The notes under the pieces were generated by a model. That model worked only from the letters and a program-made list of their open reading frames with translations, made no database searches and was not told the origin of the DNA. A stretch of 64,000 bases of DNA, taken from contig NW_026516354.1 of the NCBI RefSeq assembly GCF_025602895.1, positions 30,762-94,761 of the forward strand. Reading direction: 5' to 3'. How positions within the stretch are numbered: the stretch's first letter is position 1; each line of letters opens with the position of its first letter. Positions 4,527-64,000 of the stretch are shown here, piece by piece. The DNA is from Polychytrium aggregatum (taxonomy: Eukaryota > Chytridiomycota > Chytridiomycetes > Polychytriales). Made by a program: the position numbers and the translations under genes.

Positions 4527-4817
4527 GGCAGCAGCGGATGCAAGCGCAAGTGAGAATGCCAGTGCAAGTGCAAGTGCAAGTGCAAGTGAGAATGCGGGCG
4601 AGAGGCTGGTGTTGCCGTTGCAGACAAGCCAGGCAGGTGCGCAGCAGTGTGGCTGTGGCGATGCATGTGGCGGCGGAGTGATTGTTTGGCTTTGCCAAAG
4701 CTGCTTTGGAGCCCGAGGCATACAAAAGGAATCCACCACCAGCGACACCCATCCGCCGCATTCACCAGCACTCATCAGCACCGCATCTCCTCTTTGCCTC
4801 GCTCCGCTGCGTCCGAC

Positions 4818-6617
4818 ATGTCTGCTCCTGCCGTGCCCTGCAAGTACGGCGCCAGCTGCTACCGACAAAAGAACCCTGCCCACTCGCAGCAGTACAGCCA
4901 TCCGTCCCATGCAGCCCCTGTCTCGACCCCGCCGTTGCCGCAAGCCCAAGATTCGGCTCCCTCGGCCGCTCCGTCGGCTTCTCTGTCAGCGGCGACTGCT
5001 GTGACTACTGCGACCGCTGCGACTGCTGCGACCCCCAAGCCCCCGGCTGCACTTGTCCCTGACAGTACGCTTGTCGATGACAACGACCCTGACACCGATA
5101 AGGATTCCAGCGACGCCGAGGACGGCTCTCCCGATGTCAACCGCCCGTCGACACAAACCTCGATCAACGACGACCCCGACACAGGCGGGGCTGCTGCTGC
5201 CTCGGTCAATTCCACCGCCTCCCACGCCCCGGATACTGGCGCTGCACCTGTGTCCGCTGGTGCTCCGGCACTGCCGCCGTGCATATACGGCACAACTTGC
5301 TATCGGCAATCCAACCCTCGCCACACGGCACAGTACTCGCACTCGGCTGGACCAACTCCACCTGTGGCTCCGCTGAAGCACAAGCAACTTTCATCGACCT
5401 CCAAGTCTGGCTCAAGCGCCAGCAGCGACGACAACGACGACAACAAGGGCACCAGGAGGAGCAGCAGGAAACGGCCTGCAAACGACACCGATAACGACGA
5501 CGACGACGACGATAAAGACGAGGACGCCGACGCCGACGCCGACGATGATGACGAGGCTCAGATTATCGTCACAACCAAAAAGTCCAAGAAGCCCCGGATC
5601 GTCCAGCTCGGCTCCTTCGACGACATCTTTGACCCGGCAACTTCAACTGCCAGCTCGTCCTCAACACGCAGCTCCCACCTCATCAACCCATCCATGTCTG
5701 CAGCGATCGTCGGCGAGAAGAGTGTCCCCGGCTTTCTCCTTGCCAAGAGCTGGAATCCTGAAAGCGACGACCCCAAGGACTGGTTTATCTCGGAGAAGCT
5801 TGATGGTGTCCGGGCCATGTGGAACCCCGTGAAGAAATCCTTCTACACACGACTCGGCAACCCGCTCTCGGCCCCGCGCTGGTTCACCAAGGATCTGCCC
5901 AACTTTTTCCTGGACGGCGAGCTGTTCTCGGGCCGCAGCCAGTTTGCCCAAACGGTCTCCATTGTGCGGTCCCAGGACTCGCCGCACTGGGATAAGATTG
6001 TGTACCATTGCTTCGATGCCCCCAACCTCAGCGACAAGGTCTTTGAAGATCGCCTCGCCGAGGCCCAGAAGTACTTTGCCGCCAAGCCCGTTTCCCATGT
6101 CAAGATTGTCCGCCATGAGCCGTGCAAGTCTGTGCAGCAGCTCAAGGACATGCTGGACCAGGTGCTCGACCGCGGCGGCGAGGGACTGATGCTCCGCCAG
6201 CCCCAGTCGATGTACGAGGGCCGCCGTTCGCCGACGCTGCTCAAAGTCAAGGCCTTTTACGAAGCCGAGGCCCGCGTCACTGGCCACCAGCGGGGCACCG
6301 GTCGCAACTCCTCCGTCATGGGTGCGCTGATGTGCGTGATGGCTTCGGGTGCGACTTTCAAGGTCGGCACGGGCTTTACGGACGCCCAGCGCCGAAACCC
6401 GCCCAAGATCGGCTCGATCATCACCTATCGGTTCCAGGAGCTGAGCAAGAGTGGAAACCCACGCTTTCCGTCGTATGTTGGTGTGCGCATTGACATGACC
6501 CAGCCTAAGGATGCCGTCATTCGGCTCACTCGCAAGGACCGTGCGAATGCCGCTGCCGACGACAAGGACAAGGACAAGGACAAGGACGATGAAGACGGCA
6601 AGGATGACAGCAGCTAG
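4818..6617 (+). CDS. ATP-dependent DNA ligase with two N-terminal PBZ zinc fingers
   Basis: Single exon, 599 residues. Two PAR-binding zinc fingers (C-x5-C-x7-H-x5-H) lie at residues 8-28 (CKYGASCYRQKNPAH...) and at about 155-175 (CIYGTTCYRQSNPRH...). A Ser/Pro/Ala-rich then strongly acidic linker with Asp runs leads to a compact ligase core. Its nucleotidyltransferase motifs are I EKLDGVRA with catalytic Lys327, III FFLDGELF, IV GGEGLMLR and V LLKVKAF. An OB-like domain follows (KVGTGFTDAQRRNPPKIG...) and a charged Lys/Asp tail. It lacks the large DNA-binding domain of LIG1/3/4 and any BRCT domain, so the core resembles minimal bacterial, viral or kinetoplastid ligases. PBZ fingers bind poly(ADP-ribose), so recruitment to PARP-marked breaks is the natural inference. 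The start fits because the first finger begins at residue 8. Confidence 0.92.
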   Translation: MSAPAVPCKYGASCYRQKNPAHSQQYSHPSHAAPVSTPPLPQAQDSAPSAAPSASLSAATAVTTATAATAATPKPPAALVPDSTLVDDNDPDTDKDSSDAEDGSPDVNRPSTQTSINDDPDTGGAAAASVNSTASHAPDTGAAPVSAGAPALPPCIYGTTCYRQSNPRHTAQYSHSAGPTPPVAPLKHKQLSSTSKSGSSASSDDNDDNKGTRRSSRKRPANDTDNDDDDDDKDEDADADADDDDEAQIIVTTKKSKKPRIVQLGSFDDIFDPATSTASSSSTRSSHLINPSMSAAIVGEKSVPGFLLAKSWNPESDDPKDWFISEKLDGVRAMWNPVKKSFYTRLGNPLSAPRWFTKDLPNFFLDGELFSGRSQFAQTVSIVRSQDSPHWDKIVYHCFDAPNLSDKVFEDRLAEAQKYFAAKPVSHVKIVRHEPCKSVQQLKDMLDQVLDRGGEGLMLRQPQSMYEGRRSPTLLKVKAFYEAEARVTGHQRGTGRNSSVMGALMCVMASGATFKVGTGFTDAQRRNPPKIGSIITYRFQELSKSGNPRFPSYVGVRIDMTQPKDAVIRLTRKDRANAAADDKDKDKDKDDEDGKDDSS

Positions 6618-6687: not shown

Positions 6688-6693
6688 AATAAA
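6688..6693 (+). terminator. Candidate polyadenylation signal of the PBZ-ligase gene
   Basis: A canonical AATAAA lies 71 bases after the ligase stop codon in otherwise GC-rich DNA. It is the only clear signal close downstream; the role is inferred from position. Confidence 0.45.
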
Positions 6694-56469: not shown

Positions 56470-59400
56470 ATGGCATCCAGTGCCCTCGAGCGGGTCCGGC
56501 CGATCGCCGACTCGTCGATGATGGCGTCCTGGTCCGAGAAAAAGTGGGTGTGGGTTGCCGACAAGGCCGAAGGTTACATCGCCGGCTCCATCGTCAGCGT
56601 CGAAGGCGAAAATGCCACCCTTGACCTCACCAACGGAACGGTATGCTTTCCCACCCGCGTCATCTTGTCCCGTCGCTCCTTGATCATGCAGTTATCCGCA
56701 CGCACGGATCCTTCTCTCTCCAGTGCGCCTGCCTTTCATGAGTGTGGTTTTCCGACAGTAGAATCCGGGATCAGCAATATCTATTCAGCAGCAGGCACTG
56801 TCTATCCAAGCAACTTACCCTCCTCATTTTACACTCCCACTCCCACTCCCACCGTCTGTCTCATCCGCACTCTCAGAAACGCACCGTCAACATCAACGAG
56901 ACCGAGAAGATGAACCCTCCCAAGTTCGACCGCGTCGAAGACATGGCTGATCTGACCTATCTCAACGAGGCTTCTGTGGTTCACAACCTCCGCCTCAGAT
57001 ACTCGACCAATCTGATCTATGTAAATATCCACGCATTCTGGATCATTCTTGTCCCCCGCGTACTGGCCTTGTCCCTGTCCCGCAGTTATCCTCGCACCAC
57101 TACCGGGGTCATTGCTGCTCCGAACGAGCCCACATCCATCTGATATCTACCAAATGCTGTACTCACCCGCCTTCGCTCTATCTCACTCCCACGCCACTGC
57201 TTCACTTGCCGGCCATGAACGCCAACGCTGTGCGGCTGGCTCATCCCTTGACACTACCAGACCTACTCTGGCCTCTTCTTGGTGGCAGTCAATCCGTACA
57301 AGAAGCTCCCCATCTACACCGATGACGTCGTGCGGGCCTACAAGGGCAAGAAGCGCAGCGAGATGCCTCCGCACATCTTTGCCACGGCCGACATGGCTTA
57401 CACCGACATGCTCGAGGACCGCGAAAACCAGTCCATCTTGATCACGTACGTACTCTGGCTTTGGCGACGGAGATTGGTGCCTGCTCCGCTCTAACGATCT
57501 TGTATGCATGGCTTCACGAATTATGCGCGCTTCAATCGCCTTGGTGTGCAGTGGTGAGTCCGGTGCCGGAAAGACCGAGAACACCAAGAAGGTCATCCAG
57601 TACCTCGCTTCGATCGCGTGCTCGGCCCACGGCAGCGGCAGTAGCGGCAAGGCCCTCGGTACCCTGGAGCAACAGATCCTGCAAGCCAATCCGATCCTGG
57701 AGGCTTTTGGCAATGCTCAGACCATCCGCAACAACAACTCGTCCAGATTCGTATGTAGATGATGTGCCTTTGTCAGTGACTCTGTGGGGCTCGGCTCTTG
57801 TGCGTGACGCAATTCGAATGACTTAATCTCCGAGAGACATACCAGCGGATTGCCAAGAGGTTTCTGAATCTGTCTCTGACCCGCCCCTGTGTCTGGTCTG
57901 CGATCAGGGCAAGTTTATCCGGATCGAGTTCAACTCCTCTGGCCAGATTGCTGGAGCAAACATCCAGCGATATCTGCTCGAGAAGTCCCGCGTGACCCAC
58001 CAAACCTCCAAAGAGAGGAATTATCACATCTTTTACCAACTTCTCAAGGGCGCCACTCCCGATATTCGAGGTGTGATATTGTTGCGCCGGAGTGTTGACC
58101 AGATCCTTAACTGAGCTAGCCATCCATGCTGCCTTCAGGGCGCTTGGCGATGCCGTCGCTGCTCCGTCGTGCCTCGCTCGGTTACATCTGTTGACCGCCA
58201 TCGCTTTCGTTGCTCAACAGAGAAACTGCTGCTGGACGGAGGCGCAAACGACTATGCCTTCACTAAAGAGTCCAACAAGACCATCGACGGCGTTGACGAC
58301 GTTGCCGAGTTCAAGCTCCTGAGAGTAAGTCGCTGCTGCAACATTGTGGTCATCCCGCCACATGACACCGGCTCCGCCATTCGAACATCGATGCGATTGC
58401 CTTTGAGGGTCTGTTTTGCAGACGCCATACCTTTGTGAAGCTTACGGTCCGCATCAATCAACTGTCCAGGACGCTATGAACATCATGAACCTTAGCTCCG
58501 AGGAGCACATGGACTACTTCCGAGTGATTGCGTCCGTTCTCCATCTCGGCAACATCCAAGTCGCCCCCGACCGCGAGGACCAGGCCAAGCTCGTCGAGTC
58601 CTCCCAGACGGTGGTCGAGAAGATCTGCCATGTCCTCGGCATCTCCGTGGCCGAGTTTACAAAGGGTTTGCTGAAGCCCAAGGTCAAGGCCGGGCGCGAA
58701 TGGGTTGTGCAGTCGCGCAACTGTGACCAGGTCATGTACTCGATCGAGGCCCTGGCCCGCGCCATCTACGAGCGCATGTTCGCCGATCTCGTCGATCGCA
58801 TCAACCGCTCAATCGAGACGAGTGCATCCAAGACAGCCTTCATTGGGGTGCTCGACATTGCTGGCTTTGAGATATTTGAGGTATGAAGGCTGTGCTGATG
58901 CTGATGCTGATGCTGATGCTGATGCTGATGCTGATGCTGATGCTGATGCTGATGCTGATGCTGATGCTGATGCTGATGCTGATGCTGATGCTGATGCTGA
59001 TGCTGATGCTGATGCTGATGCTGATGCTGATGCTGATCTCGCCTCCATACACAACTGTTGATGGATAGAATCGCACCTGTTGCGTGTGTCTCACATCGTT
59101 CCATCTGCACCAACTCGCCTCTTCCTCCAGTTGAACAGCTTTGAGCAGCTGTGCATCAACTACACCAACGAGAAGCTCCAGCAGTTCTTCAACCACCACA
59201 TGTTCATTCTTGAGCAGGAGGAGTATAAGCGAGAAAACATCGAGTGGAAGTTTATTGATTTCGGGCTCGATCTCCAGCCCACCATCGACCTGATTGAAAA
59301 GACATCCGTGAGTAGCTGTACAACGAGCTGGACGCAATGTGCTGGCTGAACAGCATTGTCGTATTCACATCGCCACTCTGAATATTCGCTGCATCGAATG

Positions 59401-62400
59401 TAGCCCATTGGAATTCTGTCTTGCCTGGATGAGGAGTGCGTTATGCCCAAGGCCACCGACAAGACCTTCATCGAGAAGCTCCACGGTCTTTGGAAGGGCA
59501 AGTCTTCCAAATACGAGGTGCCGAGATTCAACTCGGCCTTCATTCTGCAGCACTATGCGGGCAAGGTTGAGTACACCGTCACGGGCTGGCTGGACAAGAA
59601 CAAGGATCCCCTCAACGAGAACATCACCAAGCTCTTGTCGACGTCGAGCGAAAAGTACATTGCCTCGCTGTTCTCGGACTATTCTGGCGACGCCGAGGAG
59701 GCCAACCCCAAGGCTCGCGGCGTAACCAAGAAGGGTGCCTTCCGCACCGTGGCCCAGAAGCACAAGGAGCAGCTCGCATCGCTGATGAGCCAGCTCTACT
59801 CGACTGAGCCTCATTTTGTGCGCTGCATCATCCCGAACGAGGAGAAAAAGGCTGGAAAGCTCGACGTCAACCTCGTCCTTGAGCAGTTGCGATGCAACGG
59901 TGTCCTGGAAGGCATTCGCATCTGTCGTGCTGGCTTCCCAAATCGTCTGGTCTTTGCCGACTTCCGCCAGCGCTACGAGATTCTCACGCCTGGATTGATT
60001 CCCAAGGGAACCTTCATGGACGGTCGCCAGGCGGCACAGATCTTGCTTGATGCCCAGAACCTGGACAAAAACCAGTACCGCATTGGAACCACCAAGATCT
60101 TTTTCCGGGCAGGCGTGGTGAGTGCTGGCACACGGGATGTCATCGTGGGAGGTGTCGGGCTGGAGAGGGGAGCACGCATCTGCGCAATGAGCAGCGTCGT
60201 CCGCCACCGTCAAAGTGGCCAAGACTTCTCTGCCGTGGCATATCTGATTTGGCCAGTGGATTGTTGATGATATCATGCTGATACTCTCCTGACGGATGCG
60301 ACTCTGACCGCCTGCCACTTTGCACATGGCGCCACCCTTTAGCTGGCCCAAATGGAAGAGCTCCGGGACATCAAGTTGTCCAAGATCGTCGCCAAGATCC
60401 AAGCCATCATGAGAGGCTACTTGTGCAGGCGATACTACAAGAAGCGACTGGACCAGCTGCGCGCCATCCGCATCATCCAGCGCAACGCTCGCATCTATGT
60501 GACTCTGCGCGAGTGGTCGTGGTGGAAGCTCTATACCAAGGTCAAGCCTCTCCTCAACGTCTCGCGAGCCGATGAAGAGCTTCGAAAGAAGGAGGAAGCC
60601 GCTCGCGAATGGGAGGAACGAGCCAAGAAAGAGCAGGACGAGCGGGCCAAGATCGAAGCCGAACGCGCCCGCCTCGAGGCCGAGATGAAGCGCATCGAGG
60701 ATTTGCTGGTGCAAGAAAAGAACGCCGCCGGTGACCAGGCCGAGATCCTGGCCCGGACCCAGAAGCGAGAAATCGATCTGACCGAGGAGCTCAAGGACGC
60801 CAACGCTGAGCTCGACAAGAAGGAAGCCCTGAACGACGAGCTCTCCAAGACCAAGAAGAAGCTCGAAGGCGAGCTCCGCGAGCTCAAGGACGCTCTCGGA
60901 GAAGAAAAGTCTACGCTCGAGCGCTTGGAAAAGGACAAGCTCCAAAAGGAACAGCGCATCAAGGAGCTCGAGGCCGACTTTCAGAACGAGAATGCCACGA
61001 CCAAGAAGCTCGAGGGCGACAAGCGCTCGCTGGAAGCTCAAATCTCCGACATCCTCAAGCAGCTCGAGGACTCTGGGGCCAGCTCTGCAGAGCTGCTCAA
61101 AGCCAAGGCCAAGATGCAAGCCAACATCACCGAGCTTGAGCAACGTCTGGAGCAGGAGGCCGAGGAGAAGGCCAAGCTTGAGCAGCGAAAGTCCAGCCTC
61201 GAAGCCGAACTCAAGACTGCCCGCGACAACATTGCCGAGCTGAGCCAGGCCAAGGCCGACCTGGACGCCACCATCAAGAAGAAGGACAATGAGCTCGCTT
61301 CCGTCAACGAACGTCTCAAGCAAGAAACCACCGAGAAGGATGGTATCGAGAAACAGCGCCGCGAGCTTCAGCTCAAGCTCAACAAGGCTGAGGAGGACCT
61401 TGAGACCGAGCGCGGCGAGAAGGACAAGCTTGCCAACCAGAAGAAGAAGCTCGAGAAGGAACTTGCCCAGCTTACGTCGCTTGTTGAAGAGAAGGGAAGC
61501 GAGGAGACCAAGCAGGGCGAGCTCCGAAGACTGCGTGAGAACGAGCTCAATGACCTCAAGATCCAGCTCGCCTCTGTCCAGAACGACCTGGAGGAGAACA
61601 AGAGACGATCAACTCAGGTCATCGACAAGTTCAAGGCCGACCTGGACGCCGCTCAGCAGGAGAAGGACGCCATTGCCAAGAACAAGGCCACGCTGGACAA
61701 ACAGCTCAGTACCCTCAAAGAGGAGCTCGAGCAGACCGAGGAGGAGCGCAGCAAGCTCGAAAAGTCCAAGCGGCAGCTCGAGAGCGACATCCAGACCGCC
61801 AAGTCCAATGTCTCCGAGCAGGACAGGGCCATTGCCGAATACAAGGCCAAGGTCGAGGCCCTCGAGAAGCAGGTCGCCACGCTGTCCGCCCGCCTGGAGG
61901 AGAGCGAGGCCAACCTGGCCCGGGTCGAGCGTGACCGTGCCGCCAACCAGAAGCAGTCCGAATCGCTCAAGGACGATCTTGAGGAGGAGGTCAAGAAGAG
62001 GACCACGCTCGAGGGTCAGAAGAAGAAGCTTACCGTGGAGATGGCCGACCTCCAGGCCCGCCTGCAGGAAGAGGAGACAGCCAAGCTTGAACTGCAGCGC
62101 CGCTTGACTGCCAAGACGGCCGAGTTTGACTCGCTCAACGACCGCTTCAGCAAGGACTTCCAGGGTCGCATGGCCGAGCTCGAAGAGACTAAAAAGAAGA
62201 CCGAGCGTGAGCTTGCCGAGCTGCTGCTCAAATACGAGGAGCTCGACCGTTCCTCGGCCAACAACGAGAAGACCAAGAGCAGGCTGGCCACCGAAATCGA
62301 GGATCTCCGGCTCGAGATCGACCGCGAGCATACCGCCACGAGAAACGCCGAGCGCCAGGCCAAGCAGATCGAGAGTCAACTTGCAGCCGTCAACATTTCG

Positions 62401-64000
62401 TTTGAGAACGAGCGCCGGCAGAGAGAGCTGGCTGAGGCAAGCGGCCGCAAGCTGCAGTCCCAGCTCGACTCGATGCAACTCGAGCTCGACGAGAAGAACA
62501 ACAACCTGAGCTCGCTGCAGAGGTCCAAGAACGATCTCGAGCACGAACTCAAGTCCCTGATTGACGAGATTGGCGATGGTGGCAAGAACATTCACGAGCT
62601 CGAGAAGGCCAAGCGCCGTCTGGAAACCAAGATTGACGAGATGCAGCAGCGCCTTGACGAGGAAGAAGCCGCCCGCAAGAAGGTCGAAGAGGCCAAAGTG
62701 ACCATCGAGAACCAGCTCAACGACTACCGCCGCAAGACCGAGGCCGACTTGGCTGCCAAAGACAGCCAGATGGAGGAGACGCGCCGCATGCTGCTCAAGG
62801 AAGTCAATTCTCTTGGCGAGCAGCTCGACGAGACCACGGCCCAGCGCAACGAATACCTCAAGGCCAAGAAGAAGCTCGAGGAGCAGATCGAGGGCCTCTC
62901 GACCAAGGCCGAGTCTTCCGCCAAGGGCCAGTCTGATCTTGAGAAAGCCAAGAAGAAGGCCGAGAGCAGCCTCCGCGAAGTCCAGAGCAAGCTGGATGAA
63001 GAAGAGCGCGCCCGCAAGAGTTTTGAGGAGCTTGCTCAGCGGCACGAAAAGAAGGCCAACGCTCTCCAGAACGAGATTGATAGACTCGAGTCCTCCTTTG
63101 AGCTTTCTGAGCGAGCCAAAAAGTCGCTCGAGAAGAAGGTCGAGGAGCTTCGGAACGAGCTCGAGGGCGGAGACGACTCTAAGGCATCGCTTCTCGAAGC
63201 CAAGAAGCGGCTGGAGAAGGAGCTGCAGCAAATGAAGCTCAAGGTTGACGAGCAGGAGGATGCCTTGACCGCGCTAGAGTCTGCCAAGCTGACCAACACC
63301 ACCGAACTGGAGCAGCTGAGAAACAAGGTGCGCGACGAGAATGACGAGCGCATCGAGAAGCTCGAAGAGTCCCGACGTGCCCTCATGGCAGCCCAGCGCA
63401 TCTCGGCGCAAGAGATCGAGGACAAGAACAAGGACATTGCCAATCTCGAGAAGCAAAAGAAGCTCATCCAGACCGAGCTCGACGAGATCAAGGCCGCAAT
63501 GGAGGCCGAAATCGCGTCCAAGAACGAAGAGGCCGCCGCCCGAAGAAAGCTTGCTGCTGAACTCAAGGACATCCAGACCAAGCTCGACAGCGAAACGGCC
63601 AAGACCAACGACCTCAACGAGGTGCTTTCAGTCTACCGAACCAAGGCTGACCAAGCCATGGTCAAGCTCGAGTCTGCCGAGATTGCCCGCATTCGGTCCG
63701 AGAAGGCCGAGACCGCCCTCAAGATCCAGGCCAAAGAGCTCGAGGACTCGCTCAGCGATGCCAAGAACGCAAAGAAGATGTCCGAGGAAAGGATCAAGGC
63801 GCTTGAAATGAAGGTGACGGAGCTGGAAGAGAAGCTTGAGGAGGAGGCTCTGGAGCTCGGCGACTTGTCCACGATGAAGCGGAAGCTGCAGGAGGAGCTC
63901 GAGTCGCTGCACGAGCGCCACAAGAAAGACGTCGAGGAGCGCGAGACCCTCGTGGAGACAACTCGCAAAAAGTACCAGAAGGAGGTCAAGCAGCTCATGA
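56470..64000 (+). CDS. Conventional myosin II heavy chain (3' end beyond the window)
   Basis: Actin motor of the contractile ring. Ten exons are seen (56470-56640, 56877-57020, 57261-57445, 57552-57750, 57908-58070, 58221-58324, 58470-58880, 59131-59307, 59404-60117, 60343 onward). The last is open at the window edge, giving at least 1975 residues. SH3-like N-terminus ([16 protein letters not shown]); motor with [13 protein letters not shown]-loop GESGAGKT (168-175), switch I NNNSSRFGKF, switch [12 protein letters not shown] (to 459), relay [20 protein letters not shown], actin-binding [13 protein letters not shown], converter [14 protein letters not shown]. Two IQ-like segments follow ([32 protein letters not shown]), then about 1130 residues of uninterrupted heptad coiled coil (for example [18 protein letters not shown]). 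The rod has no Pro-rich break. The exon beginning 58470 was chosen over an upstream acceptor at about 58422 because it gives the standard spacing before SVLHLGNI. Confidence 0.96.
58894..59037. repeat. Perfect 24-copy hexanucleotide repeat in a myosin intron
   Basis: GCTGAT is repeated 24 times (144 bases) with no mismatch. It fills well over half of the 250-nt intron between 58880 and 59131, starting 13 bases after the splice donor. All forward frames stay open, producing spurious poly(LM) and poly(AD) frames. Confidence 0.97.

Follow-up and report, generated by a model that had tools for sequence, protein, structure and literature searches.

What does a fungus do with a protein that couples two poly(ADP-ribose)-binding (PBZ) fingers to a small DNA ligase of bacterial type? 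The gene that raises this question lies in a 64,000-nucleotide stretch of the Polychytrium aggregatum genome (contig NW_026516354.1, positions 30,762 to 94,761 of the forward strand), hereafter the window. Our reading is that it probably encodes an accessory nuclear DNA ligase, in which a Lig E core and two fingers that read poly(ADP-ribose) (PAR) form one enzyme that is held by PAR at breaks and seals nicks with ATP. At the level of sequence, this reading is supported by the domain content, by catalytic and ADP-ribose-contacting residues that are intact, by the family to which the core belongs and by PARP and PARG genes in the host. Recruitment by PAR, nuclear location and a role in the repair of radiation, oxidative or desiccation damage would be expected by analogy with enzymes of rotifers and Mortierella.

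The gene occupies one uninterrupted frame of 599 residues plus a stop, with no internal stop in its translation, and as judged from that translation it is a fusion of PBZ fingers and a small bacterial-type DNA ligase in a single fungal protein, laid out as follows:

4818–6617, plus strand: PBZ-PBZ-linker-Lig E DNA ligase, 599 aa (open frame; Pfam and NCBIfam matches; second copy on contig C223; AATAAA downstream of the frame, at 6688)
4839–4901, plus strand: PBZ finger 1, residues 8–28, with Tyr, Tyr and Arg kept (PF10283; alignment to 2kqb)
4902–5279, plus strand: linker 1, rich in P, S and T, which make up 40% of residues 30–150 (composition)
5280–5342, plus strand: PBZ finger 2, residues 155–175, with Tyr, Tyr and Arg kept (PF10283; alignment to 2kqb)
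5343–5726, plus strand: linker 2, very acidic at residues 200–250 (43% D+E; composition)
5727–6497, plus strand: Lig E-type catalytic core, about residues 304–560, adenylation domain plus PF14743 OB fold (Pfam, NCBIfam, structure, alignment)
6498–6614, plus strand: charged C-terminal tail with Lys-Asp repeats (translation, composition)

The first-pass annotation had described two fingers, a long acidic linker and a compact ligase lacking the DNA-binding domain of LIG1/3/4 and a BRCT domain. The single open frame and its Pfam domains bear out this structure, and the composition of linker 2 bears out the linker. On the 599-aa protein, Pfam placed PF10283 (PBZ) in two stretches (E 5.7e-19 for the whole protein), PF01068 (E 2e-11) and PF14743 (E 3.4e-28); of the five families it listed at E 1 or below, none was PF04675, PF04679 or BRCT. 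Linker 2 also has basic clusters, at residues 217 and 254, which may serve as signals for nuclear import.

Both fingers have the spacing C-x5-C-x7-H-x5-H, as had been claimed for them, and exceed the PF10283 cut-off. Each aligns to the two fingers of human APLF in PDB 2kqb, with its first His one residue further from the second Cys, and both retain the residues equivalent to the ADP-ribose contacts of APLF (Tyr, Tyr and Arg, according to PMC6264785). By the C-x5-C...H-x5-H pattern, the contact residues and the Pfam score, they are PBZ fingers. The consensus given in PMC4030884 is not followed throughout, with Ala and Leu at its upstream K/R place (three residues before the first Cys) and Gln at its second basic place. 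This consensus is not strictly defining, as the APLF fingers themselves are one residue shorter than its spacing, but the departures mean that the PAR affinity of the fingers is not assured. What the protein shares with APLF is thus a pair of PBZ fingers and the residues by which they contact ADP-ribose, whereas APLF has no ligase and its fingers are much closer together. The finger starts are 147 residues apart here and about 41 apart in the APLF construct, which makes cooperative binding uncertain.

A genome-wide PBZ search gave six matches, namely two fingers on each copy of the PBZ-Lig E gene and one finger on each of the contigs C101 and C376. The latter belong to a second PBZ protein (L196:4280-5710), which combines one finger of APLF spacing with long acidic low-complexity regions and in which Pfam recognises no further domain at E 0.01 or below. 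The genome of this fungus therefore holds at least two PBZ proteins, in contrast to the 2014 statement in PMC4245714 that PBZ was not found in Fungi.

The same genome could both make and remove PAR. A check for PARP genes, suggested by the first-pass annotation, gave matches to the PARP catalytic domain on C83/C11 and C364/C392, and PARG matches lie on C186/C371. At the C83/C11 locus, BRCT, WGR, PARP_reg and PARP occur in neighbouring frames, read here without a gene model. XRCC1_N had no match in one six-frame search of the genome, and the control genomes gave no match either, so this result does not establish the lack of an XRCC1 scaffold that the first-pass annotation had supposed.

From these parts we propose that host PARP would make PAR at a strand break, that the PBZ fingers would hold the ligase at the PAR-marked break through its long flexible linker, and that the compact core would then seal the nick with ATP via a lysyl-AMP at K327. 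It is possible, though unlikely, that the fingers instead have histones, nucleic acid or some other protein as their ligand, and that the enzyme ligates nuclear nicks independently of PARP. The departures from the PBZ consensus, at two positions in both fingers, would suit this alternative, as would the acidic linker, which could contact histones in the way reported for the acidic region of APLF (PMC6264785). Against it stand the ADP-ribose contacts kept in both fingers and the host genes for making and removing PAR, and we continue with the PAR-directed enzyme as the preferred reading.

An in-frame ATG at 4665 is a possible alternative start that would add 51 residues (window 4665-4817), a basic stretch with eight Lys/Arg and two Asp. 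Kinetoplastid ligase K acts on mitochondrial kinetoplast DNA. This ligase is treated as a relative of Lig E (PMC10665377), and together with the basic extension it gives some footing to a mitochondrial enzyme made from the upstream start. We consider that alternative very improbable, as the ATG at 4665 has T at position -3 whereas the ATG at 4818 has G, and as the rotifer enzyme AvLigE-B is nuclear (PMC10665377). A nuclear ligase starting at 4818 remains the preferred reading.

The core is, by its sequence, a Lig E-type ATP-dependent DNA ligase. NCBIfam NF006592 (PRK09125 DNA ligase) matched residues 294–559 with 303.9 bits against a cut-off of 200, and the Pfam domains give the Lig E layout, an adenylation domain followed by a PF14743 OB fold without an N-terminal DNA-binding domain. 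An alignment of 35 rows, consisting of the window core and 34 of the best 80 of 552 prokaryotic loci, showed invariant residues at K327, D329 and G330 (I), R345 (Ia), D366, G367 and E368 (III), F399 and D400 (IIIa), E455 and G456 (IV), and K476 and K478 (V). Motifs I, III, IV and V had been noted at first pass and are thus confirmed.

The same alignment served as input to AlphaFold, which modelled the core with a mean pLDDT of 88.1. Closest by sequence among solved chains are 8u6x, 6gdr and 4d05, titled Lig E or minimal bacterial ligase; two of these proteobacterial chains, when aligned with the window core, are 43% (8u6x) and 37% (4d05) identical to it. When the predicted core was used in a fold search, 6gdr had the highest TM among the matches listed (0.82/0.88, rmsd 2.3) and 8u6x came first by E-value, while 8u6x and 4d05 reached a TM of 0.58–0.65 (rmsd 10–11) at nearly the same length, probably reflecting a different angle between the two domains. 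The proteobacterial enzymes share fold and motifs with the window core, but they are minimal enzymes without fused domains. The earlier suggestion of a minimal ligase of bacterial type is therefore upheld by the PRK09125 score, PF14743 and the 6gdr-like predicted fold. We also considered a Chlorella-virus type ligase and rejected it, as the match was weaker and the viral chain 1p8l is longer, with ~25 residues just after motif V, presumably the latch, that have no counterpart in the window protein.

A search of the host genome for ligase domains scored 10 candidates and gave eight matches, comprising the two PBZ-Lig E copies, a BRCT-bearing LIG4-type locus (C364/C162) and exons of one C223 locus that we name LIG1 from motifs read by eye; no LIG3-type locus was among the eight, and these counts are lower bounds. 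A core derived from LIG1/3/4 by loss of the DNA-binding domain is already contradicted by domain content and tree and has next to no probability: although the adenylation fold is common to ATP-dependent ligases and human ligases 1, 3 and 4 are among the lower-ranking matches to the predicted fold, the OB domain is PF14743 and not PF04679, PF04675 and PF04679 are present at the host LIG1 and LIG4 loci and were not found in the window protein, the core is 45–53% identical to the best 80 of 552 prokaryotic loci, and in a quick tree of 106 rows SH-aLRT 99 supports the separation of the host LIG1 and LIG4 rows, whose branches are very long, from the 104 remaining rows, among them the window core.

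The gene belongs to the fungal genome. Bacterial contamination was rejected on the basis of eukaryotic flanks, matching GC3 and a second copy in a contig of 1.4 Mb. The flanks comprise a CCDC90-like frame upstream on the opposite strand and Neurobeachin/BEACH and RasGEF frames downstream, and GC3 is 0.738 both in the gene and in a neighbouring long ORF (0.793 in the core alone). Fungal_trans (PF04082) had 11 matches in the genome (64.7 Mb in 418 contigs), in keeping with a fungal host. Further along the window, at 59365-63231, are long Leu-rich frames on the minus strand, which may lie opposite a long plus-strand coiled-coil gene as its antisense, and a strong AT skew marks 60–64 kb.

The second copy, on C223, is also open, and the two coding copies differ at two codons, both of which change the residue. 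The window contig (C60) and part of C223 are near-identical, with three 10 kb pieces of C223 showing 99.4–99.9% identity to the window. Six of seven repair loci sit on two contigs each, the LIG1-type locus on one only. The assembly thus probably holds both haplotypes, the C223 copy being that of the other haplotype.

To place the core among its relatives, prokaryotic genomes were scanned with a query alignment of three rows, yielding 552 confirmed loci, the best 80 of which were kept. By their record labels, 59 of these 80 come from two phyla, Planctomycetota (36) and Myxococcota (23). A tree of 83 rows (built without L025, ten near-copy or truncated loci, the LIG1 and LIG4 rows and the other viral-contig rows) has a split, supported at 98/91, that sets the window core, 70 prokaryotic loci and nine viral-contig rows apart from one viral-contig row and the two Lig E chains. 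The side with these two chains is where, according to a program warning, long branches come together. In the larger group the window row has an end branch of 2.35 and attaches at an open fork, so that the tree does not single out one bacterial donor. The Lig E core, of a family otherwise mainly bacterial, was probably acquired by horizontal transfer. PMC8455567 reports a predicted leader peptide in 69% of bacterial representatives of the Lig E cluster, and mainly fungal sequences grouping with a leaderless myxobacterial Lig E cluster.

Several other sequences in these scans deserve mention. L078, from a bin labelled Klebsiella pneumoniae, has a Lig E that falls among planctomycete rows in the 83-row tree, and its label is probably wrong. 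A contig labelled Helarchaeota, an Asgard archaeon (L101:1165-2679), has the same finger-Lig E layout and is 45% identical to the fungal core; on visual inspection its C-terminal region resembles WGR, and the WGR pattern did not count it. The IMG/VR contigs L106-L115 encode compact Lig E-like ligases (frames of 250–278 codons) with 44–46% identity to the fungal core. When viral contigs were scanned with just the core as query, a single locus came up, at 29% identity.

What stands ahead of the core differs between the fungus and its prokaryotic relatives. In 78 of the best 80 of 552 loci, the core is preceded by a C-x-C-P-A-W...C-[KR]-H motif, a SWIM-like arrangement of the type C-x-C...C-x-H; it is absent from L040 and from L105, whose frame ends at the contig edge. 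Pfam listed no SWIM model in any of the 20 frames scanned, so 'SWIM-like' describes the motif itself. Of the same 80 loci, 38 match a WGR-like pattern somewhere in the frame and 37 match it beyond the core, and the Pfam WGR domain was found in 16 of the 20 frames, which were chosen partly for their long C-terminal ends. Examples of loci with SWIM-like motif and Lig E (range L026-L105) are L086:1180-2550 and L060:1102-2568. Lig E of Myxococcota and Planctomycetota thus resembles the fungal protein in its core and in having no DNA-binding domain matched in those 20 frames, but differs in its SWIM-like motif and frequent WGR in place of PBZ. One and the same core therefore has a putative zinc finger ahead of it in these prokaryotes and PBZ fingers ahead of it in the fungus. 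We regard the SWIM-like motif before the core, and the WGR domain in many of these predicted proteins, as the contribution of this work. Among the titles and abstracts listed from the open-licence literature, none concerned SWIM or WGR fused to Lig E, and we do not claim that such a fusion is absent from print.

The fusion of PBZ to a ligase is itself in print, and the novelty implied by the first-pass annotation falls away, although the minimal bacterial-type core that it suggested stands, as do the PARP and PARG genes found in the genome. PBZ-Lig E/K fusions, published in 2018 and 2023, are described in PMC6264785 and PMC10665377 from the bdelloid rotifer Adineta vaga (AvLigE-A and AvLigE-B), the fungus Mortierella verticillata (MvLigE), Thecamonas trahens and three animal species. 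PMC10665377 assigns the eukaryotic PBZ ligases to Lig E and argues for horizontal acquisition. It describes AvLigE-B as a radiation-induced nuclear protein with ligase activity, depletion of which cuts nick-ligation activity 1.6-fold, and reports that MvLigE is radiation-induced and that human cells expressing AvLigE have better radio-tolerance. According to that paper most other eukaryotic members are without PBZ, a point on which it disagrees with PMC6264785 as to how frequent PBZ is.

The present gene, with PBZ fingers and a Lig E core in one protein, joins this published kind. It shares with the eukaryotic PBZ-Lig E/LigK proteins the PF01068 and PF14743 core joined to PBZ, and with the rotifer proteins, which have one or two fingers, the long P/S/T-rich stretches that surround them; LIG1, LIG3 and LIG4 are also described from the rotifer. 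Unlike the rotifer and Mortierella proteins, in which PBZ is described as C-terminal (PMC6264785, PMC10665377), it has both fingers N-terminal of the core; relative to the Mortierella case, the host is another one and two N-terminal fingers replace one C-terminal finger. PMC6264785 places PBZ generally towards the N-terminus of LigK, and one of its figures contains a domain model for Rhizophagus irregularis, also a fungus. A fungal protein with N-terminal fingers may therefore have been published before, and we do not claim N-terminal fingers as new for fungi. Among the papers listed from the open-licence literature, none dealt with a chytrid Lig E.

The small number of published PBZ-Lig E proteins thus gains a further fungal one, which has two fingers, both N-terminal of the core. 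The WGR domain is otherwise familiar from PARPs, and it also occurs at one PARP locus of the host. In a speculative and rather doubtful scenario, a bacterial SWIM-like-Lig E-WGR ligase entered eukaryotes and swapped its own break-recognising parts for PBZ. A self-guided enzyme would then have become one called by PARP. As a host PARP carries the domain found in many of the bacterial ligases, sensing and sealing, combined in a single bacterial protein, would have been divided over two fungal proteins and linked again through PAR. Should a SWIM-like finger and WGR indeed occur together with this core in the bacterial relatives, the family would offer a natural comparison of how a minimal ligase is steered to breaks with and without PAR.
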